Source: Dehalococcoidia bacterium (GTDB lineage: Bacteria > Chloroflexota > Dehalococcoidia > UBA3495). From it: a stretch of 40,349 bases of DNA. Position 1 is the stretch's first letter. The number at the start of each line of letters is the position of its first letter. The stretch covers positions 1 through 40,349 of the forward strand of contig JAPKDE010000003.1 in assembly GCA_028822675.1 (NCBI GenBank). Direction: 5' to 3'. Both the position numbers and the translations under genes were made by a program. The notes beneath the pieces are model-generated. The model had not been told where the DNA came from, did not search any database, and was given only the letters and a program-made list of their open reading frames with translations. Positions 17,283 through 38,861 of this stretch are shown here, piece after piece.

Positions 17283-20200
17283 ATGCCCCTGCTGTCCCTA
17301 GTCTCCTGGCTATTGCGCCGCCGACTGAGTCAGTCCTGGTTATTGTTGGCGGTTACCTCTTTTGGCATCCTGGCGTCGGTGACAATCATGTCCACCGGAG
17401 CCTTGTACTCCCGCGCTCTGGGTGAAGCTGGCCTGCGCCACGCAATATCCTCTTTCAGGCCCGAGGTTCACGACGCCCAAGTCATTGCGCAAAACCGGCC
17501 CCTGGGCTTGGGTGACTACCAGAAACTGGAGCAGCTGGTGGATGGAGTAGCCGAAGAGCGTTTGGGTGATTTGCATCTGAAAACCGAGCGATTTGGACGG
17601 ACCCAGGCAAATTTGATCCTGCTCGACTCGCCCACCGCGCCGATTCTCGGTTCTCCAGGAGGCCGGCCCTTCTTTCTCACTGGCTTCGAAGATCATACGG
17701 AGTTGGTCGAAGGGCGCTGGCCCGACCCCGATGCGTTAACAGACCCGAATAAGCAGGGCGATATCGAAACAGTCCTGGGGCCAGAAGCAGCCCGCAAGAT
17801 GGGCTACGACGTTGGCGACCGGATATTTCTGATTCCCCGCAGAGGCTCCTCGGAGCGAATCACATTCAAGGTTGTTGGTCTGGCTGAACCGATCGACCAT
17901 CGAGAAGAATATTGGATGGGCGCACCGATCTACTTCGATCTGCGGGCCGTTGGCGAGTCGGTGATTGTCCCTCTATTCGTCACCGAAGATGACTATTTCC
18001 AAGGCATCGGCGAGCGTTACCCGACCTTGGTGGGCGATTTTGGCTTCTACCTGTTCTTGGATGCAGCTTTTTTGACCGCCGACAATGCGAACCACGTTAA
18101 GGACCAGATTCTTGGCGTGGAGACCGATGTTAATAAGGTCTACCCACGCACATTAGTCCTGAGCCGCCTGGACCTGACAATCGAAGAGTTCGATAAAGCT
18201 CTGACGTTGGCCAGAATCCCGCTCTACTTGTACCTGTCTCTGGTTGTGGTGGTTGTGCTGTATTTCCTGGCGCTTATCACCGGGACACTGGGTCGCAGCC
18301 AAGCAGAGGAAGCGGGCCTGCTGCGTAGTCGCGGTGCCAGCATAGCGCAGGTAACCGGCGTGCTGGCGTTGGCGGAGGGCGTGGTGGTTGTCATTGCGAT
18401 GGTGGTAGGGCCTTTCTTGGCCTGGGCCGTCGTCAAGACACTGCTGCTGGACACGATAAATCCCGGAGGAGACATATCAGCACCCATTCCCTTAGGTTTG
18501 GCCGGGGATATGTTCTGGATGGGTGCCTTGGGAGGCGTGTTAGCCCTGGCGGTGCTACTGATCACGGCTACGGGCCGAGCCAAGATGGGTACGCTGGAAT
18601 CATTGCTTTCCAGAGCCAGGCCGCCATCTGTCCCTTTCCTGCACCGGTATTATCTGGACCTCTTAGCAGCGGTAATCGTGGCCATCATCTGGTTCCAGGT
18701 GCGCGGTCGCAACGGCTTTGTCGCCGAAGAACTATCATCCCAAGGGATAACTGTCGACCCAACATTGGTCCTTGGCCCAGTGCTGGGCTTGTTTGCTGCT
18801 GCGGTGCTGCTGCTGCGGATAATTCCTTTGATCGTCCGGTTGTTGGCCTGGTTGGGGACGCGCATCGGCCCCGCCTGGTTCCAGTTCTCGCTACTCCGTT
18901 TGGCCAGAGACCCCATTCCCCACGGCTCGTTGGCGGTAATCCTGATGCTGGCGGCGGCATTGGGGGTGTTTGGGGCCACCTTCCAGTCCAGCCTGTCGCA
19001 AGCGCAGAGCGATCAGGCACGGTACAGCGTGGGCGGGAACATGGTCTTGAGTGGACCAGCCCTGCCGATAGACGCTCCAGAAAAACTGGCCAGAGTGCCG
19101 GGCATTACAGCGGTCAGTCCAGTTTTCCGAGACTCGGTCACCCCTCTGGACGGTCCACGCGGCGAAAATGTGGAACTGCTGGCAGTAGACCCTCCAGCCC
19201 TGGCTAAAACCAGTTGGTTCCGGGACGATTTCTTTGAGGGCGGTCTACTAGAGATCAGCCGACTTCTCCGGCCCAGGCCATTTCCGGCCAGTCTTGTCGG
19301 CACCGGCATCCCATTGCCTGAAGATAGTGAGTCCCTGGGGATTTGGGTGGACAGCAATGCCCTGCTGGAACTTGACCTCAGGTCTGGCGTGAACCTGTGG
19401 GCCAGGCTGATGACGGCTACCGGCATCTACCGCAACATCGGCATGGGCGACATCTTGGAGACGGACAGCCCCGGTTCCTCAGGCGCTGAGATTGCCGATG
19501 TAAAAGCCGTTGACGGACGCTGGCGGCTGTTCAAAGGAGACATTCCTGAATATACCGCAGTCTCGCTGCCGCTGGAATTAGTCTCAATCTTCATCTCAAC
19601 CTCTCCCGCCAACAGATTGTCTGATGGGGCCATTCATTTGGATGATGTTACGGCTTTTGGTCCATCTACTGGCACTTTGCCAGCAGGTGTTGTACCAGCT
19701 GGTGTTGTAATAGAAGGGTTTGAGGGCGATTCACCGTGGGTGCCGTTGCTAAACCAGGATGAAATGCCGGACGTTGCTGAATCGTCTCGCTCAAGCGCAC
19801 GTAGCGGCGGGTCAGGCATGCGGTTTTCCTGGCAGGAGCCAATCTCCACCGGACAACGAGGTATCCACCTCCCGCCCGGACCATTTCCCATCCCGGCCAT
19901 CGGTGGGCCAGACTTCAGTTTGGGGCAGCAGATACGGATCAAACTGGGAGACTTGGCGGTGCCTGTCCGGTTTGTGGGTATCACCAGTCACTTCCCAACG
20001 CTAAAACCAGACCGGAGACCATTTGTGATCGTGGACCTGGCAGACTACCGAAAGTATGTTCGCCGGCTCCCTTTCAGCGCGATGGACCGGCCAGCCGAGA
20101 TGTGGCTGGCGCTGGATCCCGAGGCAGACCGAGAACAGGTCATCGCTGCGATACCGAGCCTGATACCTGGCTTGGTCTCCGTGCGTGACGCTGAAGTAGT

Positions 20201-20660
20201 GGCTGGGTTGGCCGAGCGAAACCCACTGGCCGGAGGCGGCTGGAACGGCCTGACTATCTTTAGCATGGTGGCCATTGGCATCGCTGTGCTGCTGACACTG
20301 ACCGTCCACGCGTTGGTGTCGGTCAAAACCGGGCGGATGGATCTGGCAGTTGTGCGCGTACTGGGGTTCTCGCGTCGCCAATTCATGCTGTCACTGGCTA
20401 CAGAGCGCCTGATCATCGCCGCAATAGCCATCGCCGCCGGCGCCGCCATTGGGTACTGGCCAGGGCTTCAAGTGTTGGAACTGGTTGACCTTACGCCTCA
20501 GGGGAACGCTCCGGTGCCGCCGCTCTTGCCTGCCGTGCAAGGCTGGCTGATGATGGGCGTGTTGGCCGGACTGGTGGCTGGCGTTGTGCTCTCGGTGGGA
20601 TTTGCCGTCGTGGCTGCGCGCCGACTAAACACCTCTGAAGTCCTGCGGGGTGGCGTCTAA
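17283..20660 (+). CDS. ABC transporter permease, giant FtsX-like, copy 1
   Basis: 1125-residue membrane protein with two FtsX/MacB-like permease modules. Predicted membrane segments: about 17-40, then a large extracytoplasmic domain, 313-337, 358-385, 409-430, 460-473, 495-525 and 550-568, a second large extracytoplasmic domain, and three C-terminal helices near 985-1010, 1043-1060 and 1087-1112. The second outer domain contains a jelly-roll-like part with DGAIHLDDV and VIEGFEG..W near 785-815, resembling carbohydrate-binding beta-sandwiches. FtsX-type permeases normally have 400-850 residues. Partners are the paralogous permease (one-base overlap) and two ATPases, so the four genes probably form one export or envelope-mechanotransmission complex. 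GGGAGG lies 13 bases before the ATG, so initiation may be inefficient. The substrate is unknown. Confidence 0.88.
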   Translation: MPLLSLVSWLLRRRLSQSWLLLAVTSFGILASVTIMSTGALYSRALGEAGLRHAISSFRPEVHDAQVIAQNRPLGLGDYQKLEQLVDGVAEERLGDLHLKTERFGRTQANLILLDSPTAPILGSPGGRPFFLTGFEDHTELVEGRWPDPDALTDPNKQGDIETVLGPEAARKMGYDVGDRIFLIPRRGSSERITFKVVGLAEPIDHREEYWMGAPIYFDLRAVGESVIVPLFVTEDDYFQGIGERYPTLVGDFGFYLFLDAAFLTADNANHVKDQILGVETDVNKVYPRTLVLSRLDLTIEEFDKALTLARIPLYLYLSLVVVVVLYFLALITGTLGRSQAEEAGLLRSRGASIAQVTGVLALAEGVVVVIAMVVGPFLAWAVVKTLLLDTINPGGDISAPIPLGLAGDMFWMGALGGVLALAVLLITATGRAKMGTLESLLSRARPPSVPFLHRYYLDLLAAVIVAIIWFQVRGRNGFVAEELSSQGITVDPTLVLGPVLGLFAAAVLLLRIIPLIVRLLAWLGTRIGPAWFQFSLLRLARDPIPHGSLAVILMLAAALGVFGATFQSSLSQAQSDQARYSVGGNMVLSGPALPIDAPEKLARVPGITAVSPVFRDSVTPLDGPRGENVELLAVDPPALAKTSWFRDDFFEGGLLEISRLLRPRPFPASLVGTGIPLPEDSESLGIWVDSNALLELDLRSGVNLWARLMTATGIYRNIGMGDILETDSPGSSGAEIADVKAVDGRWRLFKGDIPEYTAVSLPLELVSIFISTSPANRLSDGAIHLDDVTAFGPSTGTLPAGVVPAGVVIEGFEGDSPWVPLLNQDEMPDVAESSRSSARSGGSGMRFSWQEPISTGQRGIHLPPGPFPIPAIGGPDFSLGQQIRIKLGDLAVPVRFVGITSHFPTLKPDRRPFVIVDLADYRKYVRRLPFSAMDRPAEMWLALDPEADREQVIAAIPSLIPGLVSVRDAEVVAGLAERNPLAGGGWNGLTIFSMVAIGIAVLLTLTVHALVSVKTGRMDLAVVRVLGFSRRQFMLSLATERLIIAAIAIAAGAAIGYWPGLQVLELVDLTPQGNAPVPPLLPAVQGWLMMGVLAGLVAGVVLSVGFAVVAARRLNTSEVLRGGV

Positions 20661-23600
20661 TGATGCCAATGATCAGGTTTGCCTATGTTATGGCCGTGCG
20701 CCGAGCCGTGACTGGTTGGCGACTGGAGGCCGTACTCTTTGGCGGCATCCTTTTGGCTGTGGCCTTGATGGCCAGCGGAGTGATCTTTTCTGACCTGTTA
20801 TCCAACGCATCGTTGCGCCACGCATTGCAGGAGGCCACTCCCAAAGAGACCAACGTATCCATGAGGTCTTTTAGCAGCCAGGATGAGTCGTCAACTACCT
20901 CCGGACGACGTGCCGCTTATCAGGACCGGCTGAATTTTGCCCAAGAGAACGTCTCTTCAGTGCTATCGCCCTACATGGCGGAGGAAGCGTTGGTTTTGGA
21001 CACGGCTACCTTCTATTTTGAAGGGCGTCCCGGCATGGATGTGAACAACGACAGCCGACCCAGAGGCTCCGTGGTTTACATGTCCAGCTTTGGGACTGAC
21101 CGAGTCACACTGACTCAGGGATCCTGGCCAAGCGCAGATAATGCGGCGGAATCTGCAGACGTCCCAATGGAAGTAGTGGTGGATGGGCTGGGCCTGGATC
21201 TGCTGGGCATGGCAGTGGGCGATGTGGCGAGCATCTTCCCCGCCGCGTCCTACACCGACCCGCCGCGCTTGCCGGTGCGTATATCGGGCGTTTTTGAGCG
21301 AGTCAATCCCGATGACAAATTCTGGTATGGCGTCGATGACGACTTTAGCCTCAAGAACGACCGCTGGACCATCGTGCCCATGTTCACCAGCGAAGAGGCT
21401 GTCATCAACCGAGTGATTGGCCAATACCCAACGCTCTACACCGATGTCACTTGGTTCTATTATTTGGACCGGGAGAACCTGCGGGCCAACGACGTTCGAG
21501 ACCTACGAACAACACTTTTAAGGGTCGAGAATGGCATAAGATTCGAGCTTAAGAACTCCAGTTCATCCATTAGGTTGGACACGCTTCTAAGCGACTTTGA
21601 CGAGCAACTAATCCTGGCCAGGGTTCCTCTGTTCTTGGTGGTGTTCCTAATCACCGGGATTCTGCTCTATTACCTGGCTTTGGTGGCTGGGTTGATTGTC
21701 CGTTCCCGCTCCAGTGAGATTGCCATGCTCAAGAGCCGGGGTGCGACCACGACTCAGATTGGCATAATGGGCCTGGGAGAGGGTCTGCTATTAGGCATTC
21801 CGGCGGTGATCATCGGCCCGTTCCTAGCGATGCTCGTGGTCAAGGTGCTGGGCAACGTTTTCTTTGGGCTGGGCGGCGGGGCTGATGAAATCTCTGGGGT
21901 TCCGGTGGTTGTGTCTCAGGGTGCCATGATTCTAGGACTAATCGGCGGCGGGCTTGCCGTGTTGGTGTTCACTTTGGCCACCGTGGCGGCGGCTAGGCAC
22001 GGAATCATCGAAGCCAAACAGTCCGGCGCTCGCCCGCCAACGGCGTCATTCTTGCACCGCTACTACCTGGATGTCGTCGCCCTGGGTCTGATCCTGCTGA
22101 TCTGGTTCCAAGCCAGAAGCCGGGGCGCGTTCCTGATCCAATCGCCGGATAGTACCGAGTTGAAGCTGGATTTTGTTGGTCTGCTCATCCCCGCCCTATT
22201 ACTGCTGGCCGTTGGGTTGGTGGTGATGCGGGTATTCCCATGGTTTGCGCTGCTCCTGTCACGCCTGGCTGGGCCTGTTGCCCCTTCCTGGTTGGTGCAC
22301 TCCCTGCGGCACGTGGCCCGCGACCCAATAGTGCCTGGCATCCTAATCGTACTGCTGACTATGTCTACGGCTCTGGGTGTCATTGGCAGCGCCTTCAGTT
22401 CCACTCTGGAGCGCAGTCAAAAAGAACGCGCGCTATATTCGGCGGGGGCTGACCTGAGGGTACGGCATATCGGCGTATCCAGCGTAAAGCCTGGTGGTCG
22501 GTTTGCCGAAAACGTAGCTGAGAATTCGGCCGTGGTCAGTGCGGCTGATGTGTTCCGCACCAACGGGCAGATCACGTCCACTGGGTTCAGTGATCCAGCC
22601 GTTATTCTGGCAGTGGACTCTGCGAAAATTGCTGACGTTGCCTGGTTTAGAGACGACTTGGCCGATGGAAAGTCGATGAGTGACTTGGCTGAGTTGCTGG
22701 GAGACGGGCCGGAGGCTCCGCAAGGACTAGAGCTTCCTGACGACGTAATTGGCTTGTCTGCATGGGTGCAACCCACAGGGCTGGACGGCGGTGCGAACCT
22801 CTGGGCGAGACTGCGCGACGCCAACGGCGTTTACTTTGATACCTGGGTGGGAACCTTGGGAAACCAAGGCTGGAACAAGATTCAGTCAGACCTTTCACCG
22901 GTGATTGCGGCCGGACGCCGTCTCGTTAACGACACACGTCGAGGCACTCTTGTGCGGCCATTCACGCTGCAATCATTTCAGGTTACCAACCGCCTTGGCG
23001 GGTTTGGGTCTGACGGCCTGGGGGCCATCTTCTTGGGAAAGTTAGAGGCGGTGACCACCAGCGGGCCGGTCCTGCTGGCCGATTTTGAGTCGTCTGACGG
23101 CTGGTCCGTAGTCGAAGACTTCTCACGGCCTGGACTGTACGCATTGGAGACCAGCGGGTCGGCAGGGGGTGGACAATTTCCAGTATCGACACGCTTCAGT
23201 TGGGCCAGTGGCGGCGTTGGGCTGCGGGGTCTGAGGCCTGGCCCTACAGAAGCCCCAATAGCCGCGGTGGTTAACTCAGAGTTTTTGGAACTGGCCGATG
23301 CTGGTATGGGTGACGACGTGATTTTGGGACTGTCCACCTACTCGATTCGGGTGAACGTCGTCGGTGTGGCTGATTATTTCCCCACGCTGGACCCCGGAGA
23401 CAAACCGTTTGTGGTGTTGGATCTGGACAGTCTTGAGGCTGTGGCCAACCAACATAGCCCAGTCCCAATGGCCGGAGCCAATGAGATTTGGGTGAACCTG
23501 GAATCTTTCTCTGCGGACATGCCGGATGATTTCGATCAGACCGGTGCGGTTGGCGATGCCGATAATGTGGCCGCATTCATGCGAGAACTCGGGGTCAACA

Positions 23601-24094
23601 TCAGAGACGTTTATGACGCCGAGGAAATGGTGGTCTCCCGGGTCGACCAACCGCTAGTCAACGCCGGTTGGGGCGCGTTGCTAGTGTTGTTGTTCTTGGC
23701 GGTAGCCCTAGCCACGGGCTCAGGAGTGATGTTATTTTCGTTCCTGGACACTAAGGAGCGTCAGACAGAATTTGCCCTGCTCCGCACCCTGGGTTCCACC
23801 GGCGGCCAGATGCGGGGCATCGTGTGGTTTAATCTATTCCTCATCGTCATCTGCGGCGTGGCTCTGGGCACCTGGGTGGGCCAGTTGATCGGTTCAAGTC
23901 TGCTGCCGCTCATGGAACTGGCTGAAGAAGGCGAGCGTGTGACACCGCCCATGGCGTTTACGACCAATTGGCTGTCGCTTTTGGTGTCGTATTCGGTCCT
24001 GGCGGCAGTCACATTAGTAACTGTGATCTGGCTTGCCTGGTTGAGCGCCAAAATACAGGTGCAGCAGGTCCTCAGGATGGGAGACGCAGGATGA
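20660..24094 (+). CDS. ABC transporter permease, giant FtsX-like, copy 2
   Basis: 1144-residue paralogue of the preceding gene with the same layout: an N-terminal helix near 20-43, an outer domain, a helix cluster beginning near 321-346 with the cytoplasmic segment RSRSSEIAMLKSRGATTTQ, a second outer domain with GAIFLGKLEAVT and ADFESSDGWSVVED near 790-815, and three C-terminal helices after about 1010. The charged loop between helices (E-x-A-x-L-x-S-R-G-A) is the usual contact with the ATPase. It starts within the stop codon of copy 1 (TAATG). Its own stop overlaps a 24-residue open frame leading to the first ATPase. Presumed to heterodimerise with copy 1. Confidence 0.88.
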   Translation: MMPMIRFAYVMAVRRAVTGWRLEAVLFGGILLAVALMASGVIFSDLLSNASLRHALQEATPKETNVSMRSFSSQDESSTTSGRRAAYQDRLNFAQENVSSVLSPYMAEEALVLDTATFYFEGRPGMDVNNDSRPRGSVVYMSSFGTDRVTLTQGSWPSADNAAESADVPMEVVVDGLGLDLLGMAVGDVASIFPAASYTDPPRLPVRISGVFERVNPDDKFWYGVDDDFSLKNDRWTIVPMFTSEEAVINRVIGQYPTLYTDVTWFYYLDRENLRANDVRDLRTTLLRVENGIRFELKNSSSSIRLDTLLSDFDEQLILARVPLFLVVFLITGILLYYLALVAGLIVRSRSSEIAMLKSRGATTTQIGIMGLGEGLLLGIPAVIIGPFLAMLVVKVLGNVFFGLGGGADEISGVPVVVSQGAMILGLIGGGLAVLVFTLATVAAARHGIIEAKQSGARPPTASFLHRYYLDVVALGLILLIWFQARSRGAFLIQSPDSTELKLDFVGLLIPALLLLAVGLVVMRVFPWFALLLSRLAGPVAPSWLVHSLRHVARDPIVPGILIVLLTMSTALGVIGSAFSSTLERSQKERALYSAGADLRVRHIGVSSVKPGGRFAENVAENSAVVSAADVFRTNGQITSTGFSDPAVILAVDSAKIADVAWFRDDLADGKSMSDLAELLGDGPEAPQGLELPDDVIGLSAWVQPTGLDGGANLWARLRDANGVYFDTWVGTLGNQGWNKIQSDLSPVIAAGRRLVNDTRRGTLVRPFTLQSFQVTNRLGGFGSDGLGAIFLGKLEAVTTSGPVLLADFESSDGWSVVEDFSRPGLYALETSGSAGGGQFPVSTRFSWASGGVGLRGLRPGPTEAPIAAVVNSEFLELADAGMGDDVILGLSTYSIRVNVVGVADYFPTLDPGDKPFVVLDLDSLEAVANQHSPVPMAGANEIWVNLESFSADMPDDFDQTGAVGDADNVAAFMRELGVNIRDVYDAEEMVVSRVDQPLVNAGWGALLVLLFLAVALATGSGVMLFSFLDTKERQTEFALLRTLGSTGGQMRGIVWFNLFLIVICGVALGTWVGQLIGSSLLPLMELAEEGERVTPPMAFTTNWLSLLVSYSVLAAVTLVTVIWLAWLSAKIQVQQVLRMGDAG

Positions 24095-24165
24095 TTAAAT
24101 TAGGGACTTCCTGTATAGCCAAACCCAAAACAACCCAGGTTTTAGGCATGGGAGACAATACATGA
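24091..24165 (+). CDS. Possible 24-residue coupling ORF
   Basis: Starts in the ATGA of the copy-2 permease stop and ends in the ATGA of the first ATPase start, so both ends overlap by four bases. GGGAGAC precedes both the short ORF and the ATPase. It begins MIKLGTSC and ends GMGDNT. It has no recognised domain. It may only serve to couple translation across the gap, or be chance. Confidence 0.35.
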   Translation: MIKLGTSCIAKPKTTQVLGMGDNT

Positions 24166-25109
24166 CACAGTTGAGCGAATATCTGACCAATCAGAGCGGC
24201 AATCCCGGTCCGGTTCAGCAAGACGGCCCGTATATCAACTGCAATGACCTCTTCAAGATCTACAAACGCGCCGATCTGGAAGTGGTGGCCCTGCGCGGGT
24301 TGGACCTGACCGTGGAACCCGGGGAGCTGATTGCGATCATCGGGGCGAGTGGCAGTGGAAAAAGTACGTTGCTAAACATCTTGGCCGGCTTGGACCGTCC
24401 ATCTGCAGGTCAGGTTATGGTCGGCTCCAGAGATTTACTGGACGTGTCTGATAATGACCTGGTGATGTACCGACGCTCTGAGGTCGGTTTTGTCTGGCAG
24501 GCCACTGCCAGAAACCTGGTGCCCTACCTAACGGTGGGCGATAACATCGAACTGCCCATGGCTCTGACCGGCCAATCGGCCAAGGCTCGCCGAGCCTGGT
24601 CCAGTGAATTATTAGAATCCTTTGGCATCGCCGACAAGGCCAAACGGCTTCCCTACCAGCTGTCCGGCGGCGAACAGCAACGGGCCGCCATTGCCGTGGG
24701 CCTGGCCAACAAGCCGCCCCTGCTGCTGGCTGATGAACCCACCGGCGAGTTGGATACGGAAAACGCCGACAGTATCTTTGAGATGATTCGCGGTTTGAAC
24801 CGTGCCTACGGAGTCACGGTGGTCACCGTGACTCACTACGCCGGAGTCTCCCAGTTTGTGGACCGGGTTGTTCACATTCGAGACGGACGAATTGGTTCCG
24901 AGACTTTCCCCAGGCCGGATTACCGACGAGATGGCGACATGGTGCAGGATGAGTTCGTGGTGGTAGACCAGTCTGGGCGGCTTCAGCTTCCGCTGGAACT
25001 GGCCGACCGGTTTCGCAGCGGTGGTTTGGCCAAGATACAGGTTGAAGATGGTCAAATCATCATCGACCCGCCCAGCACAAACCCTCGGCAGACCCGCAGC
25101 CGTAGTTAG
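24162..25109 (+). CDS. ABC transporter ATP-binding protein with AbrB-like C-terminal tail
   Basis: 315-residue ATPase of the LolD/MacB type that pairs with FtsX-like permeases. Walker [10 protein letters not shown] (61-69), Q-loop Q113, signature LSGGEQQR (167-174), Walker [13 protein letters not shown] with D191/E192, and H-loop H225 are all intact. Residues about 262-303 form an extra domain: [20 protein letters not shown] followed by [15 protein letters not shown]. This has the pattern of a SpoVT-AbrB swapped-hairpin unit (hydrophobic strand, G-R-L-x-L/I-P, short helix, strands). Typical LolD-like ATPases end near residue 230-240. GGGAGAC lies 6 bases before the ATG. It follows the permease pair and precedes the second ATPase. 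Confidence 0.92.
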
Positions 25110-25114
25110 CAGCC

Positions 25115-25144
25115 GGATTTACCGGGCTTGGATTTACCAGGCTT
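25115..25144. repeat. Tandem 15-bp repeat, two copies
   Basis: GGATTTACC(G/A)GGCTT occurs at 25115-25129 and 25130-25144 with one difference, in the gap between the two ATPase genes. Confidence 0.7.
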
Positions 25145-25164
25145 GAAATATTAGGAGTTAAGCA

Positions 25165-25872
25165 GTGGTGGCTAGCGAACCAAATATAACGGCCAGGGTC
25201 GGCCCGGTGATTACAGCGGTCGGTGTCAGTCGTGTCTTCGGCTCCGGTGATACCGCCGTGACTGCTTTGGCCACCATTAATTTGACCGTGGAACGGGGTG
25301 ATTTTCTGGCGGTCACCGGTCGCTCCGGCTCCGGCAAGACCACATTGTTGAACCTGCTCTCCGGGCTGGACCGCCCCAGCTCCGGCACCGTCGAATTTGA
25401 CTGCGAAGACCTGGCTAAGTTGAAAGAGGCTGATATGGTTGATATGCGCCGGCACAAGATCGGTTTCGTGTTCCAGTCATTTGGGTTGATGCCATTGCTT
25501 TCGGCCCAGGAGAACGTGGAGCTGCCGCTGCACATCGGCGGAGTGTCATGGCGGGAACGCCGACAGCGGGCACACGACGCTCTGGAGGCTGTCGGCTTGG
25601 GCTCCAGGGCCAGACACCGCCCATTTGAACTGTCCGGCGGCGAACAGCAGCGCGTGTCCATCGCCCGGGCCTTGGTGACCGGGCCGGAGGTGGTGTTCGC
25701 CGATGAGCCCACAGGAGAACTGGACACCGCCTCCGCTCGTTCCATAGCTGAGACATTGGGTGAAGTCGCAGCATCCAGGCGGGCCACCGTCATTGTGGCC
25801 ACCCACGACCTCGACTTGGCCGCCACGGCCCAACGCCGCCTGGACCTGGTCGACGGCGCGATTGTGTTTTAG
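25165..25872 (+). CDS. ABC transporter ATP-binding protein (LolD/MacB type)
   Basis: 235-residue ATPase without extra domains. Walker A GRSGSGKTT (52-60), Q104, signature LSGGEQQR (156-163), Walker [13 protein letters not shown] (D180/E181) and H214 are intact, so it should be active. It starts with GTG at 25165, supported by AGGAG 7 bases upstream; a second GTG follows directly at 25168. It is the last gene of the four-gene transporter operon. Two ATPases for two permeases suggests either a heterodimeric ATPase pair in one complex or two related transporters. Confidence 0.92.
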   Translation: MVASEPNITARVGPVITAVGVSRVFGSGDTAVTALATINLTVERGDFLAVTGRSGSGKTTLLNLLSGLDRPSSGTVEFDCEDLAKLKEADMVDMRRHKIGFVFQSFGLMPLLSAQENVELPLHIGGVSWRERRQRAHDALEAVGLGSRARHRPFELSGGEQQRVSIARALVTGPEVVFADEPTGELDTASARSIAETLGEVAASRRATVIVATHDLDLAATAQRRLDLVDGAIVF

Positions 25873-26479: not shown

Positions 26480-27646
26480 ATGATTACAAAATTCGACAGC
26501 CTATTTGCCGGTCACGTAGACATGACCGACATTGGCTACGCCGGCACGGCGGTCAACGACAGGAAGTTTGATAACGAACACCTGATGACCGTTTACAGCA
26601 AAGCAGAGGCCATTGCCAAAGCCCTGGACGAGAACGGTTTTGACACCATGTGGATGGCGGAGCATCACTTTCAGCCAGAGGGCTACGAGTGCATCCCCAA
26701 CCTGATTATGCTCAACGTCCATCTGTCCCACTTGACCAAGAACCTGAGGTTCGGCTGCGGTTTCAATATCGCCCCCATGTGGCACCCCCTCCGCCTGGCT
26801 GAGGACTTCGCTACTGCAGATATCTTGACCAAAGGCCGGGTGACCTTCGGCGTTGGACGCGGCTACCACACCCGTGAGGTTGAGACCTTTGGTTCCGACA
26901 TCACCGACCAGGATGCCAACCGCGAGAAATTTGAAGAATCGGTGGACATCATCTTCAAGGCGTTTAACAACGAATCCTTCTCCCACCAAGGAAAGTACTA
27001 CACCCTGCCGCCCGAGGTGCCCTATCGTGGCTACACGCTCAAGGAGCTGACTCTGGTGCCCCGCCCGGCCACTCTGCCGGTTGAGTGCTGGCAGCCCATC
27101 CAAGGTGGCACGCAGAGGGCGTTGGACTTCATGGTCAAGCACGGTATCAAGGGCGTTCTTGGCGGCGGCGTTGCTGAAGGCGGCGTCATGGACGACATCA
27201 TGACCGGCTACCGAGACGCTTTGATCCGCGCCGGCAAGAAAGACGCCCAGCTGGGCGAGGGTCTGAGCGTTGGCTTCCACTTCCACATGGCTCCCACGGT
27301 GGAGCAGGCCATGCAAGAGGCCCAAGGCTTCTTCGAAGAGAACCTCAAAATGTTTGGTCCTCTGCGCTTGAGTCGAGGTATGACCGATGAGCAAATTGAC
27401 ATCATTGGTGATCCTCGTCGGGCACCTACTGGTGGACTGCCGACAATCCAGGAAGCCGTTAAGAAGCAGGCGTTCTTGGCCGGCCCACCGGACCGGATTA
27501 TTGAGCAGCTCAAGGCTGTGGAAGAGGCTTATCCTGCGCTCGAGCGGATCGGTATGAGTCACCCCATGGGCACACCCCAGAGCGTGATTACGGACCAGAT
27601 AGAATGGTTCGGTAAAGAGGTCATGCCCGCCTTCAAAGGGAAATAA
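26480..27646 (+). CDS. Luciferase-like (LLM class) flavin-dependent oxidoreductase
   Basis: 388-residue TIM-barrel monooxygenase of the bacterial luciferase superfamily, two-component FMN type. Landmarks: GFDTMWMAEHHFQPEGY near 54-70, FGCGFNIAPMWHPLRLAEDFATADILTKGRVTFGVGRGY near 92-130 (the LaeD...L..GR...GVG(R)G signature), and NREKFEESVDIIF. The length and the WMAEHHF motif favour the alkanal/alkane monooxygenase-like branch over the F420-type short LLMs. It has its own consensus promoter and a strong terminator, so it is a monocistronic unit. The substrate is not known. Confidence 0.9.
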   Translation: MITKFDSLFAGHVDMTDIGYAGTAVNDRKFDNEHLMTVYSKAEAIAKALDENGFDTMWMAEHHFQPEGYECIPNLIMLNVHLSHLTKNLRFGCGFNIAPMWHPLRLAEDFATADILTKGRVTFGVGRGYHTREVETFGSDITDQDANREKFEESVDIIFKAFNNESFSHQGKYYTLPPEVPYRGYTLKELTLVPRPATLPVECWQPIQGGTQRALDFMVKHGIKGVLGGGVAEGGVMDDIMTGYRDALIRAGKKDAQLGEGLSVGFHFHMAPTVEQAMQEAQGFFEENLKMFGPLRLSRGMTDEQIDIIGDPRRAPTGGLPTIQEAVKKQAFLAGPPDRIIEQLKAVEEAYPALERIGMSHPMGTPQSVITDQIEWFGKEVMPAFKGK

Positions 27647-28500: not shown

Positions 28501-28824
28501 ATGGCAATATTTGAACTGCGTACCTACACCCTTTATGTGGGTAAGATGGGTGAAGCCATCAAACACTATTCCGAGGCTGGGTGGCCCGCATTACAGAAAG
28601 GAGGGTTCGACTCCAAACTAGTTGGTTATTTCACCAGCGATGTGGGTACCATCAACCAACTGGTCCACCTGTGGCGATTCGAGGACGACGCTGATCGCCG
28701 CGATTTCTGGTCCAGGTTATTTTCCGACGATGAGTTCATGGCGTTTGCCGGTAAGCTGCGGCCCCTGGTGATGACCCAAGAGGTAAAACTGATGCTGGAA
28801 GCCCCCTGGGGACCGCACCCGTAG
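28501..28824 (+). CDS. NIPSNAP family protein
   Basis: 107-residue ferredoxin-like alpha/beta-barrel protein. It starts IFELRTYTLYVGKMGEAIKHY and contains VGYFTSDVGTINQLVHLWRFEDDADR, the standard NIPSNAP opening and centre. Family members form dimers; the role in bacteria is poorly known. GGAGGGG lies 3-4 bases before the ATG. It sits between the divergent SRPBCC gene and the promoter of the UGSC pair. Confidence 0.9.
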   Translation: MAIFELRTYTLYVGKMGEAIKHYSEAGWPALQKGGFDSKLVGYFTSDVGTINQLVHLWRFEDDADRRDFWSRLFSDDEFMAFAGKLRPLVMTQEVKLMLEAPWGPHP

Positions 28825-29980: not shown

Positions 29981-30032
29981 ATTCTGATTGAAGATTAGTT
30001 TGCCAGGTAACACCCTTTTCCAAGGAGAAATT

Positions 30033-30602
30033 ATGGTTAGCGCACCAACAGCAGACATAAAGGCTAGGCTAAGTGAGTTGGGCTTGCTCTCACCAATCGA
30101 CCCGAATGCCAATTCTCGGTGGAGCCCAGCCTCGCGTTTGGACTCTATCCACGGCAAGGTGGGCGGATTTCTAGGCAACCGCAAGGCCAATGCCAGCCTC
30201 TTGCTGCAAGGGGTTAAAGAATTGATGTACAAAGACTACGAGCTTAGGGATGGGATTGACGTCGACAAGTACGTGTATTCCCGGCCCGCCGCCGACGACA
30301 TAATCGACGATCTGGTTACCAAGTGCGACTTTGTTGTCACCTGTATCGCGGATTGAGGCTCTTGCACCGCGTGCAGTGTGCACGATGCGATGGCCTTGGA
30401 GAACCGGGGCGTGCCAACTATAGTCATTTGTACTGAGCCGTTCTTAAATTCAGCCTACCGCCACGCCAAAGTGTTTGGACGCCAAGGGTTTCAGCCCCTG
30501 GGCATCCCACATCCCTTGGGTGGCATCAACGCGGAGGCTGTATCTCAGCGGTCGGAAGAATTGCATCTTCAGATCATTGAAGCCCTGACCACTGGCGAAT
30601 AA
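30033..30602 (+). CDS. UGSC family selenoprotein (in-frame TGA read as selenocysteine)
   Basis: The frame from ATG 30033 meets TGA at 30354-30356 and continues in the same frame to TAA at 30602, giving 189 residues with selenocysteine at 108. The sequence around it reads VVTCIAD-U-GSC-TAC-S, so U108-GS-C111 is a UxxC redox motif followed at once by C111-TA-C114. The part after the TGA has full coding character (ENRGVPTIVICTEPF, GIPHPLGGINAEAV). This matches the UGSC-motif selenoprotein family known from marine metagenomes. A hairpin 14-28 bases after the TGA is a SECIS candidate. AAGGAG lies 6 bases before the ATG. Standard gene callers would report two fragments (30033-30356 and from about 30378). 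The thioredoxin-like redox role is inferred from the motif; the substrate is unknown. Confidence 0.88.
30354..30384 (+). promoter_or_regulatory. Sec codon and SECIS-like hairpin
   Basis: TGA at 30354-30356. Downstream CGTGCA (30370-30375) pairs with TGCACG (30379-30384) around loop GTG (30376-30378), whose first base is G. The loop starts 20 bases after the TGA, within the 16-37 base range of bacterial SECIS elements. An alternative, mutually exclusive stem TGCAC/GTGCA (30363-30375) puts the loop only 12 bases away. Confidence 0.6.
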
Positions 30603-30678: not shown

Positions 30679-31566
30679 ATGGTTCGAGTAGGCGCAGACG
30701 TACGAGTTTACGAGCAGCTAGAGACGTGGGAGAAACTACCTGAGGGTTGGGTCCTAGGCCAAACGGCCATCGTGACCGACTCCCAAGACCGGGTCTATTT
30801 GTTCAATCGCGGCGATCATCCACTGATGGTCTTTGATCGTGACGGCAATTTCTTGAATTCCTGGGGCGAAGGCGATCTGCCCGACGCCCACGGCATGTTC
30901 ATAGATGCCGATGACAACCTCTATATGCCGGTTAAAAACAGCCATGTTGTGTTGAAGTACCGGCCCGATGGCAATCTGTTGATGACCATGGGTGAGTGGG
31001 ACAAACCCTCTGACACCGGTTGGTCCGGCAGCGTTACTGACCTAGCCAAACAGGCGGCAGGCCCATTCAACCGACCCAGCGACATTGCTCTGGACGCAGG
31101 GGGAGACCTGTACATCTCCGATGGCTACGGGAATGCGCGTGTTCATAAGTTCACCGCCGACGGCAAGTTGCTCTTTTCCTGGGGCGAACCGGGCAAGACC
31201 GGACCCGGAGAGTTCCACGTCCCCCACGGCATTTGGGTACACACCGATGGCCGGGTATTTGTGGCTGACCGGGAAAATAACCGGATCCAAATATTTGATG
31301 CCGAAGGCAAATACCTGGAAGAATGGGGCGGCTTGGCCCGACCCTGTGACATCTACATAGATCAGGACAATATCATTTACGTGCCGGAACTAGACGGCTT
31401 CATGAGTATCTTGAGCATCGACGGCGATATCATCTCCACTTGGGACAGCCCCTTGGATGCCGGTATGGGCAATGGAGCCCACGCCGTTTGGGTGGACTCC
31501 CACGGAGATCTCTATGTGAACCAAAACGTGGAAGGCCATCGCTTGGTCAAATACATCCGCCAGTAA
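30679..31566 (+). CDS. NHL-repeat beta-propeller protein
   Basis: 295-residue six-bladed NHL-type propeller, similar to the peptidylglycine alpha-amidating lyase / tripartite-motif NHL group. Repeats are visible as GQTAIVTDSQDRVYLFNRG, AHGMFIDADDNLYMP, RPSDIALDAGGDLYISDGYGNARVHKF, PHGIWVHTDGRVFVADRENNRIQIF and AHAVWVDSHGDLYVNQN. There is no signal peptide. GAGGAG lies 8 bases before the ATG. It stands 76 bases downstream of the selenoprotein on the same strand and may be in the same transcript. The function is not determinable; propellers of this type often act in ligand binding or as lyases. Confidence 0.87.
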   Translation: MVRVGADVRVYEQLETWEKLPEGWVLGQTAIVTDSQDRVYLFNRGDHPLMVFDRDGNFLNSWGEGDLPDAHGMFIDADDNLYMPVKNSHVVLKYRPDGNLLMTMGEWDKPSDTGWSGSVTDLAKQAAGPFNRPSDIALDAGGDLYISDGYGNARVHKFTADGKLLFSWGEPGKTGPGEFHVPHGIWVHTDGRVFVADRENNRIQIFDAEGKYLEEWGGLARPCDIYIDQDNIIYVPELDGFMSILSIDGDIISTWDSPLDAGMGNGAHAVWVDSHGDLYVNQNVEGHRLVKYIRQ

Positions 31567-31734: not shown

Positions 31735-32631
31735 TTGGAAGTTGGAGTAATCTTCCCCCAGACGGAGATTGAACCAGACCCGTCAGCGATCAAGGACTTT
31801 GCCCAAGCTGCAGAAGACATGGGTTACGCCTATATCTTCATTGCTGATCACGTCTTGGGCGCCGACCCGGCCCACCATGATTTTCCAGCGCTGCGCACCT
31901 ACAACCATAAATCAGTGGTGCACGAAATTATGACACTGATGGGCTACCTCTCAGCAGTCACTGAGCGGGTTGGTCTGGCCACCGGAATTCTGATCCTGCC
32001 GCAACGCCAAACGGTGTTGGTGGCCAAGCAGGCGGCCGAGGTGGACGTGCTTTCCGGAGGGCGGCTGCGCCTGGGCATTGGCGTTGGCTGGAATACCGTG
32101 GAATACGAGGCTCTGGGCGAGGATTTCCACAACCGCGGCGCACGCAGCGCCGAGCAAATCGAGGTCATGCGCGCCCTCTGGACTCAAGATGTGGTTGATT
32201 TCCACGGCAAGTGGCACAACATCAGCCACGCTGGTCTTAATCCCCTGCCGGTTCAGCGTCCGATTCCCATCTTCTTGGGGGCAGGCAGCTCATCTACTCC
32301 GACCATTGCTGAGCCTGTATTGAAACGTGTGGCCAGGCTGGCCGACGGCTGGTGTCCCAACTTCAACCCGGACGATATGGGCAAAGCTTATGTGGAAAAA
32401 GTCCACGGCTACATGCGGGATATGGGCCGCGACCCCAGCAAATTGGTGCTAGACGGCAGACTTCGCGTCAGCGGCAAACAACCGGAAGACTGGATGGATG
32501 AAGCCAAGGCATGGCAGGAACTGGGTGCAGGCTATCTGTCGATTGAAAACCGCCAAGGCGGACTGACCACGGCTGGCGAGCATATAGAAGCCATGCGCCG
32601 CTTCAAAGACGTCACAGGGCTCAAGTTCTAG
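31735..32631 (+). CDS. LLM class F420/FMN-dependent oxidoreductase
   Basis: 298-residue luciferase-like TIM-barrel enzyme, F420-dependent-type length. Landmarks: MGYAYIFIADHVLG near 23-36, RVGLATGILILPQRQTVLVAKQAAEVDVLSGGRLRLGIGVGWN near 79-120 (LAKQAAEVDxLSGGRLxLGIGVGWN signature) and EYEALGEDFHNRGARSAEQIEVMRALW. TTG start with GAGGAG 6 bases upstream. Short LLMs with this signature are often F420-linked, but cofactor use is inferred. The thioesterase gene follows 70 bases downstream. Confidence 0.9.
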   Translation: MEVGVIFPQTEIEPDPSAIKDFAQAAEDMGYAYIFIADHVLGADPAHHDFPALRTYNHKSVVHEIMTLMGYLSAVTERVGLATGILILPQRQTVLVAKQAAEVDVLSGGRLRLGIGVGWNTVEYEALGEDFHNRGARSAEQIEVMRALWTQDVVDFHGKWHNISHAGLNPLPVQRPIPIFLGAGSSSTPTIAEPVLKRVARLADGWCPNFNPDDMGKAYVEKVHGYMRDMGRDPSKLVLDGRLRVSGKQPEDWMDEAKAWQELGAGYLSIENRQGGLTTAGEHIEAMRRFKDVTGLKF

Positions 32632-32701: not shown

Positions 32702-33157
32702 TTGACTAAATTTGAGCCCAGAGACCCGGACTTTGTCGCCAAGGTCCGTGAGAGTTTTAATCGCCAGACATCCATGCAGACCTTGGGTGCGGTGCTGGGT
32801 AGTATCGAGCCTGGTTTGGTGGAAATTGAGATGCCCTTTCGGGCAGACCTCACCCAGCAGCACGGCTTTGTTCACGGCGGAATAGTCACGGCTATCCTGG
32901 ATAGCGCCTGCGGGTATGCCGCTTTTAGTCTCAACTCCCCAGACACTACAGTCCTGACCGTGGAGTACAAGGTCAACTTTGTGGCTCCGGCCAAGGGTGA
33001 TCGGTTTATGGCGCGCGGCGAGGTGGTGCGGCCCGGCGCAACCGTGACCGTCTGCAAGGGAGACGTTCTGGCATACGACGGCGACGAAGAAAAGCTGGTG
33101 GCCACCATGCTTATGACCATCATGACCATGCCCGACCGACCTGACCTGGCGGGCTAA
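32702..33157 (+). CDS. PaaI-like hotdog-fold thioesterase
   Basis: 151-residue single hotdog domain. The active-site motif is QQHGFVHGGIVTAILDSACGYAAFS, with HGG at 58-60 and the catalytic Asp position at D67. VLTVEYKVNFVAPAKGDRFMARGEVVRPGATVTVC is the second half. Such enzymes hydrolyse acyl- or aryl-CoA thioesters, often releasing CoA from dead-end intermediates. TTG start with GGAG 9 bases upstream. It ends convergent to the alcohol dehydrogenase gene 38 bases away. Confidence 0.9.
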   Translation: MTKFEPRDPDFVAKVRESFNRQTSMQTLGAVLGSIEPGLVEIEMPFRADLTQQHGFVHGGIVTAILDSACGYAAFSLNSPDTTVLTVEYKVNFVAPAKGDRFMARGEVVRPGATVTVCKGDVLAYDGDEEKLVATMLMTIMTMPDRPDLAG

Positions 33158-34363: not shown

Positions 34364-35695
34364 CTAAACGGTTACGCCAGTGAAGTTGAAACTTGCTAGC
34401 TTCAGGGCTGGCACCCTGGTCGCAAAACCAACCTCGTTAAGAATCAGCTTCGACTCGCGGCCAACCAACTCCACGCCAGCCAGAGCATCCACATAAGACT
34501 GGGTGAAACGAAGGTCTTTTACGGGGTGGGTAATCTGACCGTTTTCGATCATAAATGTGCCGTCACGGGTCATTCCCGTCAGTACACAGCCCTTGGAGTG
34601 TGCCAGACGGGTGTAGAAGAACCGGGTGATGTAGATGCCCCGGTCGGTGGAACCGATCAAGTCTTGGAGGGATGAGTCGCCTTCCTGCATAAACAGGTTG
34701 CTGGCAATGGGCGCTCCGGTGAAGTAGGCCTGGTGTCCCGTAGAGACGACACCGTCTTTGCCGGCCGTGTATGAATTGTGCACCGGGGTGTTAACAACTC
34801 CTGCGGTGATGACATCCACGCGCCGACGTGGCACGCCTTCAGCGTCAAATGGCAACGGCCAGCCCTGGGTGGCAGAACCGTCGTCCCAGATAGTCACACT
34901 GGGACTCATGACCTGGTCGCCGATGATGTCATTCATCCAGCTTCGGCCTTCCTGTACCGCCTGTGCGCCCATGCCGTACATGCTTAGGGCTTCAAGAATG
35001 TCGTCCACGGCGTAGGTGTCCAGCACCACTGGATAACACCCCGGCTCAATGGCCACCGGATTGCGTCCGTCCACCGCCTTGGACACGGCTTCCCGACCCA
35101 GCGCCTCAGTGTCCATGTCGGCCAGTCGCCAACCGCCGCCCTTGGCCCAGCCAGCCGAGTCGTCGCTCATAGTGTTGATGATCAACCCGGCAAACGTTCC
35201 AGCGTGGTAGGCGCGCGTTCCGTGGTTGCTGACCACTGCAATCTCCTGCACACCCGTCCGGCAGGCTCCAGATACGTTCAGGTCATGCTCTTTGCCCTGT
35301 AGGCAGACCCCGTGTACGATCTTGGCCCTAGTATCCGGGCTACAGAAGGCTGTGGCCTCGTCCCAACTCTCGACCGTGGCCGCATCAGACGCTTGGGGCA
35401 GACCCATGAAATTGCTGTCTTCCGGCATGAGCTGAGCGTTTTGGTGGGCTGATTCCACGGCTTTGCGGATACCAGAGTCGCTCAAGTCGTTGGTCGTTGA
35501 CCTACCCAGGCGTTTGCCGACGACCGAGCGGACGTTCAAGACCACGTTGCCGTGGGACACGTTTTGGTGGATTGCCCCGCCGGCAAAGCGGGATAGGCTC
35601 AGGTCTTGGGCGTTGAGATAGATATCGGTCTCTTGGGCCTTGGAGTAACCAAGGGCCTTGTCCAGAAGGGCCAGAGCGGCCTCTCGACCCAGCAT
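34364..35695 (-). CDS. TldE/PmbA-type metallopeptidase subunit
   Basis: 443-residue partner of TldD. TldD/TldE heterodimers are zinc peptidases that degrade unstructured peptides and mature some peptide natural products. The TldE subunit lacks the zinc motif, and none is seen here. Family landmarks: ETDIYLNAQDLSLSRFAGGAIHQNV at the start, VVLDTYAVDDILEALSMYGMGAQAV in the middle, and DRGIYITRFFYTRLAHSKGCVLTGMTRDGTFMIENGQI near the C-terminus. The frame extends to 35803, but ATG at 35695 is chosen because it overlaps the tldD stop by one base (TAATG) and matches the family N-terminus. Confidence 0.9.
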   Translation of the reverse strand: MLGREAALALLDKALGYSKAQETDIYLNAQDLSLSRFAGGAIHQNVSHGNVVLNVRSVVGKRLGRSTTNDLSDSGIRKAVESAHQNAQLMPEDSNFMGLPQASDAATVESWDEATAFCSPDTRAKIVHGVCLQGKEHDLNVSGACRTGVQEIAVVSNHGTRAYHAGTFAGLIINTMSDDSAGWAKGGGWRLADMDTEALGREAVSKAVDGRNPVAIEPGCYPVVLDTYAVDDILEALSMYGMGAQAVQEGRSWMNDIIGDQVMSPSVTIWDDGSATQGWPLPFDAEGVPRRRVDVITAGVVNTPVHNSYTAGKDGVVSTGHQAYFTGAPIASNLFMQEGDSSLQDLIGSTDRGIYITRFFYTRLAHSKGCVLTGMTRDGTFMIENGQITHPVKDLRFTQSYVDALAGVELVGRESKLILNEVGFATRVPALKLASFNFTGVTV

Positions 35696-37985: not shown

Positions 37986-38861
37986 CTACAGCACCGCTTC
38001 CGCAACCCGTTCTATAGCCTCGTGGGCAGATTTCTCGTCGGTGGTATTGAGCATGTGCACCACGCGGTTGGCCCCAGAGTCGGCAAATCTGCGGTTCATG
38101 TCTCGGTCGTGCGGGGCATCCCACATGGTGATATTCAGGGCAGAATGATCTCGGCCCCTTTGGGTCATCAGTTCTTCAATGTGCTTGCGCGCTCCAGAGA
38201 GTTTACCCGGGTCTTCATACTGAGACGTATTCCGGGCTCGAGGTAGCCAGCCGTCTCCGTAACGAGCGATACGCCGAGCGGCGCTTTCCAGCTCTCCCCC
38301 CACGAATATCGGCGGATGGGGTTTTTGTACCGGCTTGGGTGCGCAGACCAAGGGCGGAAAATCGATGTACTCTCCGTGGTACTCGGTAATCTCAGTGGTC
38401 CACAGTTCTTTCATAACGTCTATGTATTCCCTGGTTTGTTTCCAGCGGTGGGGAAAATCCACGCCCAGTATCTCTGATTCACCCCTCAACCAACCAGCGC
38501 CAATTCCAAATAGGAACCTGCCGCCGGATATTTGATCCAGAGTGGCAACCTCTTTAGCCAGGCGGATGGGGTTGCGTTCTGGCACCAGACAGATGCCGGT
38601 TCCCAATTTGATCTTCTTGGTAACCGTGGCCGCCCCGGCCAGAAATATTAGCGGGTCCACAATCTGGTTGATGCCGCCTTCAGCGTAGAACTTGGGAATT
38701 CCGCCCTGTCGGCCAATGGCTGGTTGGACTTTGAAATCAACTGGAACTACCCCGTGCTCCGGCGCCCAGAGTGACTCAAAGCCAAGATCCTCCACCTTGC
38801 GGGCCAGGTCAATAGTATTGAAATCGTGCTGTGTCATTAGCAAGGCAATGCCGATATCCAT
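37986..38861 (-). CDS. LLM class F420/FMN-dependent oxidoreductase
   Basis: 291-residue luciferase-like TIM-barrel enzyme, third of its superfamily in the window. Landmarks: LGFESLWAPEHGVVPVD near 27-43, KIKLGTGICLVPERNPIRLAKEVATLDQISGGRFLFGIGAGW near 82-123, and GVDFPHRWKQTREYIDVMKELW. The LAKEVATLDxxSGGRFxFGIGAGW block marks the F420-dependent group. GAGG lies 8 bases before the ATG. Its leader is made of short CCAAT/CCAAC repeats (38884-38956). Confidence 0.9.
   Translation of the reverse strand: MDIGIALLMTQHDFNTIDLARKVEDLGFESLWAPEHGVVPVDFKVQPAIGRQGGIPKFYAEGGINQIVDPLIFLAGAATVTKKIKLGTGICLVPERNPIRLAKEVATLDQISGGRFLFGIGAGWLRGESEILGVDFPHRWKQTREYIDVMKELWTTEITEYHGEYIDFPPLVCAPKPVQKPHPPIFVGGELESAARRIARYGDGWLPRARNTSQYEDPGKLSGARKHIEELMTQRGRDHSALNITMWDAPHDRDMNRRFADSGANRVVHMLNTTDEKSAHEAIERVAEAVL

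Follow-up and report, generated by a model that had tools for sequence, protein, structure and literature searches.

In component B of glycine, sarcosine and betaine reductase a selenolate attacks an activated substrate, and D-proline reductase (PrdA/PrdB) has a small selenoprotein subunit with UxxC that depends on a larger one. The UGSC selenoproteins were described by Zhang and Gladyshev in 2008 (PMC2398784), whose accessible text counts 255 forms with Sec and 21 with Cys in ocean metagenomes and reports a fusion of UGSC to a domain called Unknown_1. Excerpts of the same paper and of PMC9402790 place UGSC among the most abundant selenoproteins of ocean metagenomes. The functions of its selenoprotein group are called largely uncharacterised in the sections available to us of a 2026 review (PMC13188914); the first-pass annotation of the DNA studied here had assigned the family no function. 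Expansions of FMN/F420 monooxygenase paralogues are described for SAR202 in the consulted part of PMC5395668, where 'selen' occurs only in an author name. UGSC genes that are split at the TGA can escape gene-family counts. A literature search, with most subscription journals outside it, returned no paper that joins SAR202 and selenoproteins or UGSC and Chloroflexi, although two combine SAR202 with selenocysteine and eight Chloroflexota with selenoproteins. With UGSC known since 2008, what is unexpected to a specialist is its near-constant unnamed partner and the scale of its expansion.

The window, i.e. the whole stretch of 40,349 nucleotides of Dehalococcoidia DNA that was analysed, contains a UGSC gene presented as two open reading frames (Table 1). 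The frame is interrupted solely by the TGA and ends with TAA; the read-through product has the motif U108-G-S-C111-T-A-C114. PF24696 (UGSC) covered residues 19 to 186 of this product with an E value of 4.7e-43 and 147.7 bits against a cut-off of 25, and the part before the TGA alone was matched with an E value of 2.2e-10. The NF041046 model 'UGSC family (seleno)protein', which matched 35 of 35 aligned UGSC members at E<=1e-3, scored 128.8 bits and passed its cut-off of 125. Both the single frame through the TGA and the family name given in the first-pass annotation were thus confirmed. The Sec position, the Gly and Cys111 were invariant in the 35 aligned sequences. The annotation had also pointed to a CxxC overlapping the UxxC. 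It is present in the window, but other paralogues have Trp, Gly or Arg instead of C114 and the CxxC is therefore not general. The gene adds a new member to a known, uncharacterised family of selenoproteins.

Table 1. Positions of the UGSC gene, its elements and the surrounding genes within the window.
Feature	Position	Strand	Description or evidence
UGSC-family selenoprotein gene	30033..30602	+	189 residues with Sec108, TAA stop; read-through translation
Selenocysteine codon, in-frame TGA (U108 of UGSC)	30354..30356	+	TGA conserved at the motif
Ribosome binding site of the UGSC gene, AAGGAG	30022..30027	+	direct sequence; 5 nt before ATG
Hairpin CGTGC-AGTGT-GCACG, probable bacterial SECIS element	30370..30384	+	TGA+14 to +28; pairing in 70 distinct sequences
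Partner gene, 347 aa	28937..29980	+	just upstream of the UGSC gene; pairing with UGSC in relatives
NHL-repeat beta-propeller protein, next downstream	30679..31566	+	PF01436, E 2.9e-17; cluster at +1 in 9/49 anchors
F420-dependent LLM-class oxidoreductase	31735..32631	+	TIGR03619, 251 bits, cut-off 166.9
4HBT-fold thioesterase	32702..33157	+	PF03061, E 1.2e-14; 4HBT cluster near 10/49 anchors
Second LLM-class (luciferase-like) monooxygenase, upstream	26480..27646	+	PF00296, E 1.3e-41
Third LLM gene of the window	37986..38861		
NIPSNAP-domain protein, between LLM gene and partner	28501..28824	+	PF07978, E 1.8e-20
Candidate-linked ABC export cluster, upstream of the UGSC region	17283..25872	+	PF02687, PF00005
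FtsX-type permeases, 1125 and 1144 aa	17283..20660, 20660..24094	+	PF02687
Two LolD-like ATPases, after the FtsX permeases	24162..25109, 25165..25872	+	PF00005

A search with one genome per species yielded 12 loci of close relatives from MAGs titled Dehalococcoidia, SAR202 or Chloroflexi. Their UGSC proteins were 67 to 95% identical, the nearest (L001) being 95% identical to that of the window, and homologues did align across the TGA: all 12 loci had it at the same codon, followed by a homologous downstream frame. The 95% identity places the window in or close to this lineage. The whole genomes of these relatives contained 92 PF24696 places, 6 to 12 per genome. Every one of the 92 had an in-frame TGA without any other stop; in one there were two TGAs. 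The codon at the motif was TGA in 71 of 71 extracted genes (70 from relatives plus that of the window) and Cys in none; after one copy with an identical core was merged, 70 distinct genes were left, 69 of relatives and the window's. A wider sample of the class gave a UGSC match in 61 of 197 genomes with '1 TGA' in every match listed. Cys occupied the Sec position in 21 of 21 aligned database proteins, which were chosen long enough to span the site so that TGA is impossible there. Among 18 plasmid-borne UGSC genes that were read, 12 had Cys, 4 TGA and 2 Met. Thus homologues with Sec and others with Cys at residue 108 exist.

The consensus for a bacterial SECIS calls for a stem-loop suitably spaced behind the TGA and having G/U in its loop. 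A stem of this kind, with a loop starting with G 20 bases after the TGA, had been proposed for the window. Its five pairs were formed in 70, 70, 68, 70 and 70 of the 70 distinct sequences, i.e. in 348 of 350 cells (99.4%), the sequences being related so that independent events are fewer than the cells counted. Sliding the 3' partner by 1 to 6 bases lowered the pairing to 9 to 87%, the 87% belonging to a slide of -4. An optional sixth pair, A-T in the window and some pair in 63 of 70 sequences, leaves a GTG loop with its start 20 nt after the TGA, as proposed; 64 of 70 sequences had G at +20 and all 70 had T at +21. In pair 3 T-A is replaced by C-G or wobble pairs, in pair 5 C-G by G-C. Pair 5 is made up of the third bases of codons 114 and 116 and was C:G in 48, G:C in 22 and T:G in 1 of 71 genes. 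The codon for Val116 was GTG in 43 of 43 cases after a codon ending with a pyrimidine and GTC in 4 of 4 cases after TGG; this difference is silent, and base pairing explains it best. Among 13 orthologues a single codon was used for 2 of 5 invariant residues within 112-119 compared to 1 of 82 elsewhere (Fisher p 0.008, with small numbers). Of the plasmid forms, 11 of the 12 with Cys were used and kept 37 of 55 pairs, and four with TGA, three of them near-identical, kept 20 of 20. A search of Rfam gave nothing in the window at gathering scores. We conclude from the aligned sequences that the stem is real and covarying and probably constitutes a bacterial SECIS element.

The presence of such a gene had implied that the lineage inserts selenocysteine. 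In the genomes of the 12 relatives SelA was found over cut-off in 10, SelB in 10 and SelD in all 12, while a tRNA-Sec of 64 to 67 bits was present in 9, which bears out the implication. Weaker tRNA-Sec scores occurred in every genome including 14 controls and mean little. SelA also passed its cut-off in 8 of 9 further genomes with UGSC. The absence of SelA from two and of full-length SelB from two of the 12 relatives is perhaps due to incomplete assemblies. As a side observation, SelD itself carries an in-frame TGA in 12 of 12 SAR202 genomes. SAR202 genomes (L115-L134) also harbour two probable further selenoproteins whose frames contain a TGA: a GrdB that has UGTS, and a GrdB-like family of shorter proteins that has UPxC.

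These data bear on the view that translation simply ends at the TGA, the frame behind it being a gene of its own or what is left of a decayed one. Database homologues seem to favor it, because all those listed (120 of 254) are pieces of 104 to 112 aa, called up to the TGA, and the read-through is a prediction from the sequence. Yet, a decaying or separate frame does not agree with 92 of 92 places that have the TGA and no other stop, with a TGA that falls on the motif in all 71 genes checked, with the conservation of the downstream frame, with the compensating silent changes of the hairpin, with the Sec machinery of the relatives and with Cys instead of TGA in other phyla. We consider an ordinary stop hardly credible and regard it as ruled out by the 92 in-frame TGAs together with the silent changes in the hairpin. 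That the two open reading frames are one selenoprotein gene is practically certain.

A degenerate pattern of TGA and hairpin, matched exactly, occurred 59 times in G039, a Chloroflexi MAG of 5.0 Mb, and 24 times in G040 (2.7 Mb). As controls, the reversed pattern gave 0 exact matches, as did six UGSC-negative genomes. When one mismatch was allowed, the numbers were 85 and 29, with one match in the UGSC-negative genomes. An all-frame search with the UGSC profile then identified at least 101 genes of G039 whose motif contains the TGA, a lower bound since the search covered the 471 kb around pattern matches. The largest pairwise identity of these genes was 81% and the median 28%; thus the copies are not strain duplicates. 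They are distributed over 35 contigs, two contigs of 350 to 359 kb carrying 14 genes each, and the stretches around them have 58 to 63% G+C. One SelA was present in this genome. Five hairpin pairs were formed in 80 of the 101 genes and four pairs in 6. Fourteen of the 15 others belong to a UGxC-TPA subgroup, and RNA folding puts a hairpin in another register for most of these. The pattern did not match once in genome G058 despite PF24696 at 16 or more places there, and it caught about half of the UGSC genes in several other genomes. Hence the element varies. Outside the 101 genes, G039 has a UGSC-family gene with UGTU, i.e. two in-frame TGAs in the motif (G039:C101, L202).

The accessible text of the 2026 review (PMC13188914) names 57 and 63 genes as the largest bacterial selenoproteomes and warns about mixed MAGs; an earlier figure, taken from part of PMC5029168, was at least 39 selenoproteins. 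As counted from the assembly, at least 101 genes of UGSC alone in one Chloroflexi MAG exceed the bacterial maximum of 63, subject to the quality of the MAG. If this holds true, some Dehalococcoidia genomes contain the largest selenoproteomes known. They would have escaped notice since annotation cuts the genes at the TGA, and the copy numbers point to selenoproteomes being larger than estimated wherever this happens.

The gene just upstream of UGSC turned out to code for a regular companion. Among the 70 distinct UGSC genes, 6 were fused to a partner protein of about 350 aa and 61 had it as their neighbour on the same strand. With a six-frame search 67 of 70 were thus paired and 3 had no detected partner; a simple ORF caller gave 56 of 70. 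Two of the three genes lacking a partner are near a contig end, and the third is degenerate (UGSW, second TGA) beside a partner remnant of 58 aa. Of the 101 genes in G039, 96 were paired, 56 by fusion and 40 by adjacency, and 5 had no detected partner. Because the 70 genes and those of G039 were loci chosen around UGSC, a whole-genome scan for the partner served as a control. The 12 genomes contained 103 partner places, of which 92 were near a UGSC place on the same contig, as compared by hand. The 11 others comprised three fragments that were short or at contig edges, seven members of what seems to be one orthologous group and one place about 4 kb off. Of the six UGSC-negative genomes five lacked the partner, and the sixth showed just a short match of 29 positions with an E value of 5e-4. 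On plasmids, the partner was present in 12 of 12 records with a UGSC match (Paracoccus, Acidovorax, Variovorax, Arthrobacter, Embleya and haloarchaea) and in 12 further records. Of eight of the latter that were examined, four had an adjoining UGSC-like gene and two the fused form; a Haladaptatus plasmid had a partner without an annotated UGSC beside it. The fused proteins are single chains of 570 to 600 aa with UGSC followed by the partner, a classic sign of two proteins acting together. Thus UGSC and its partner are very probably a two-part protein. Going by the 11 of 103 places that lie apart and by the Haladaptatus plasmid, the association of the partner with UGSC is not a strict one.

The seven UGSC-free partner genes had similar scores and are located at G001:C55:2561-3595, G002:C4:28330-29361, G003:C182:20260-21291, G005:C36:23701-24732, G008:C205:37960-38994, G009:C60:53427-54461 and G010:C28:33537-34571. 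At L074:7835-8176 a UGSC copy with UGSW and a second TGA, near a short partner remnant, is probably decaying.

Alignment of 22 partners revealed common DG.P...PT (DGxP..PT), MAGC, RA and W positions, the latter including W182. The same 22 members compared with Pfam and NCBIfam gave no match below an E value of 0.02. A sequence search of solved structures yielded no relative of the partner (best E value 0.07), and no similarity to GrdB was detected. A query with a single partner matched at least 7998 of 7999 scored candidates, indicating that the partner family is very large.

The genes around the pair were compared at 49 anchors, 10 of them plasmids, with short loci left out. A protein cluster that includes the LLM genes of the window was near 20 of the 49, two LLM genes flank the pair in the window, and a third one lies further downstream. 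Monooxygenase paralogues are characteristic of SAR202 according to the consulted part of PMC5395668. One may thus suppose that UGSC and its partner are a redox or selenol protein of an oxidative pathway, reducing for example a hydroperoxide, flavin or lactone product of the adjoining LLM monooxygenases without reductive cleavage. On the other hand, other UGSC subfamilies adjoin a TPP enzyme and a glyoxalase, malate synthase and an aminotransferase, a PLP enzyme and an MFS transporter, an IMPDH-like protein or a flavin reductase. Thus LLM proteins are no constant companions of UGSC, and the function is not readable from the neighbourhood in the window alone. We consider a role in an oxidative pathway possible but rather unlikely. 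Further downstream, a pair of PmbA/TldD metallopeptidase genes occupies 34364-37161 of the minus strand, the two ORFs overlapping by 109 bases.

Sec near Cys is a good ligand for soft metals. UGSC might accordingly bind or transfer a soft metal, selenide or an organometal with the partner as acceptor, as proposed for the SAO selenoprotein system; an action on organometals has been suggested for other selenoprotein operons in the available sections of PMC13188914. Yet, the neighbours scanned, a small sample, included neither a metal-transport nor a mercury-type family, and metal binding would leave about 100 diverged copies in one genome unexplained. We regard this function as very unlikely.

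On plasmids a trxB scoring over cut-off was near the pair in Roseovarius, where the pair has the Cys form and the gene order is partner-UGSC-trxB, in Arthrobacter, there together with an annotated trxA, and in Variovorax SRS16. Two more of 20 plasmid loci had a TrxB-like protein below cut-off near the pair, while three of the 20 were without annotation. Thus trxB accompanies the pair in a small number of loci, which do not include any from SAR202. Two plasmid loci, L107 (5281-7005) of Sporomusa termitida and L108 (5323-7008) of Vibrio europaeus, carry fused UGSC-partner proteins with Met in place of Sec or Cys. These fusions adjoin genes for aconitase X and DUF126, and the Met indicates that some family members do something else.

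The fold of UGSC was predicted with AlphaFold2. The model of the window protein (pLDDT 88, pTM 0.81) is an alpha/beta domain in which Sec108 follows directly after a strand (100-106) at the start of a helix (109-124). The structure matches listed were flavodoxin-like, CheY-like, lumazine-synthase-like and other generic alpha/beta folds; a flavodoxin-like fold is predicted from the model. A sequence search of solved structures identified no relative of UGSC, the best E values of 0.019 and 0.018 belonging to unrelated names. For a model of the fusion protein (pLDDT 81.6, pTM 0.82) no convincing structure match was obtained, the partner half being barely probed.

A thioredoxin-like fold had been suggested for UGSC in 2008 in the part of PMC2398784 at hand. 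UGSC would then be a disulfide oxidoreductase, a UxxC/CxxC redox protein with the partner as its client, and the UxxC motif as well as the thioredoxin reductase nearby in some genomes would fit. The predicted alpha/beta domain with Sec between a strand and a helix does not support the fold, nor do the structure matches listed, all of them generic. Furthermore, conservation does not extend to the second Cys of the CxxC. Going by the model and the matches listed, we consider the thioredoxin fold unlikely and a client-type oxidoreductase improbable.

Similarity to GrdB was found around the Sec residue. TIGR01917 (GrdB) matched 10 of 35 UGSC members at E<=1e-3 with a best value of 2.6e-6, the other 25 falling short. 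When UGSC was compared with GrdB of SAR202 by hhalign, Sec was aligned on Sec with an E value of 1.1e-4 and a probability of 56%; with a wider GrdB-like set the probability was only 26%. Because the window protein reached 20.5 bits with TIGR01917 and missed the cut-off of 602 by far, the link to GrdB is a lead, not membership. At the level of aligned residues the Sec region of UGSC weakly matches that of GrdB and may be related to it.

For the pair observed in these genomes we infer the following chemistry, substrates and electron donor. The partner would hold an activated small organic substrate, and UGSC as the small subunit would present the Sec selenolate for an attack on it, modelled on component B of glycine, sarcosine and betaine reductase. 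Cys111 would resolve the selenenyl-sulfide, and thioredoxin with thioredoxin reductase would restore the selenol. Each paralogue might act on a different substrate by common chemistry, which would explain why 6 to about 100 diverged copies are found beside different catabolic enzymes. Evidence that counts against a reductase comes from the dissimilarity of the partner and GrdB, from the UGSC-free partner genes, from the Met-form fusions of plasmids and from the neighbourhood in the window, where LLM monooxygenases, the NHL protein and the thioesterase read as oxidative catabolism. Overall, we slightly favor a substrate-specific, thioredoxin-fed selenol reductase, formed by the UGSC gene with its conserved TGA and the partner, as the best explanation. 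The narrower proposal of a GrdB-like reductive chemistry fed by thioredoxin is drawn by analogy and stays tentative. The chances appear evenly balanced that UGSC and its partner represent an unrecognised system of substrate-specific selenol reductases, which diversified in Dehalococcoidia like the FMN monooxygenases and would give some genomes the largest selenoproteomes.

Given the near-constant partner, the natural fusions and the neighbouring thioredoxin reductases, the function could be tested with two defined proteins. Moreover, the copy numbers suggest that an abundant lineage of the sea and the subsurface may break down refractory organic matter with the help of selenium chemistry as well as that of flavin.

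With the UGSC family of 2008 (PF24696, NF041046) the locus shares the motif, and both models were matched. What goes beyond the available text of PMC2398784 is the stand-alone neighbouring partner, the near-constant pairing and the copy numbers per genome; Unknown_1 of that paper may be the partner described here. The likeness to GrdB (TIGR01917, PF07355) is a weak, position-correct match around Sec. However, GrdB is one longer chain, of 446 codons in two SAR202 frames, whereas UGSC is devoid of the N-terminal part of GrdB and its partner has no similarity to GrdB. D-proline reductase resembles the pair in combining a small UxxC subunit with a larger partner, yet the partner of UGSC has no significant match in NCBIfam or Pfam. 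A parallel is offered by the monooxygenase expansions of SAR202 as described in the consulted part of PMC5395668, which occur in the same lineage and likewise consist of many anciently diverged catabolic paralogues.
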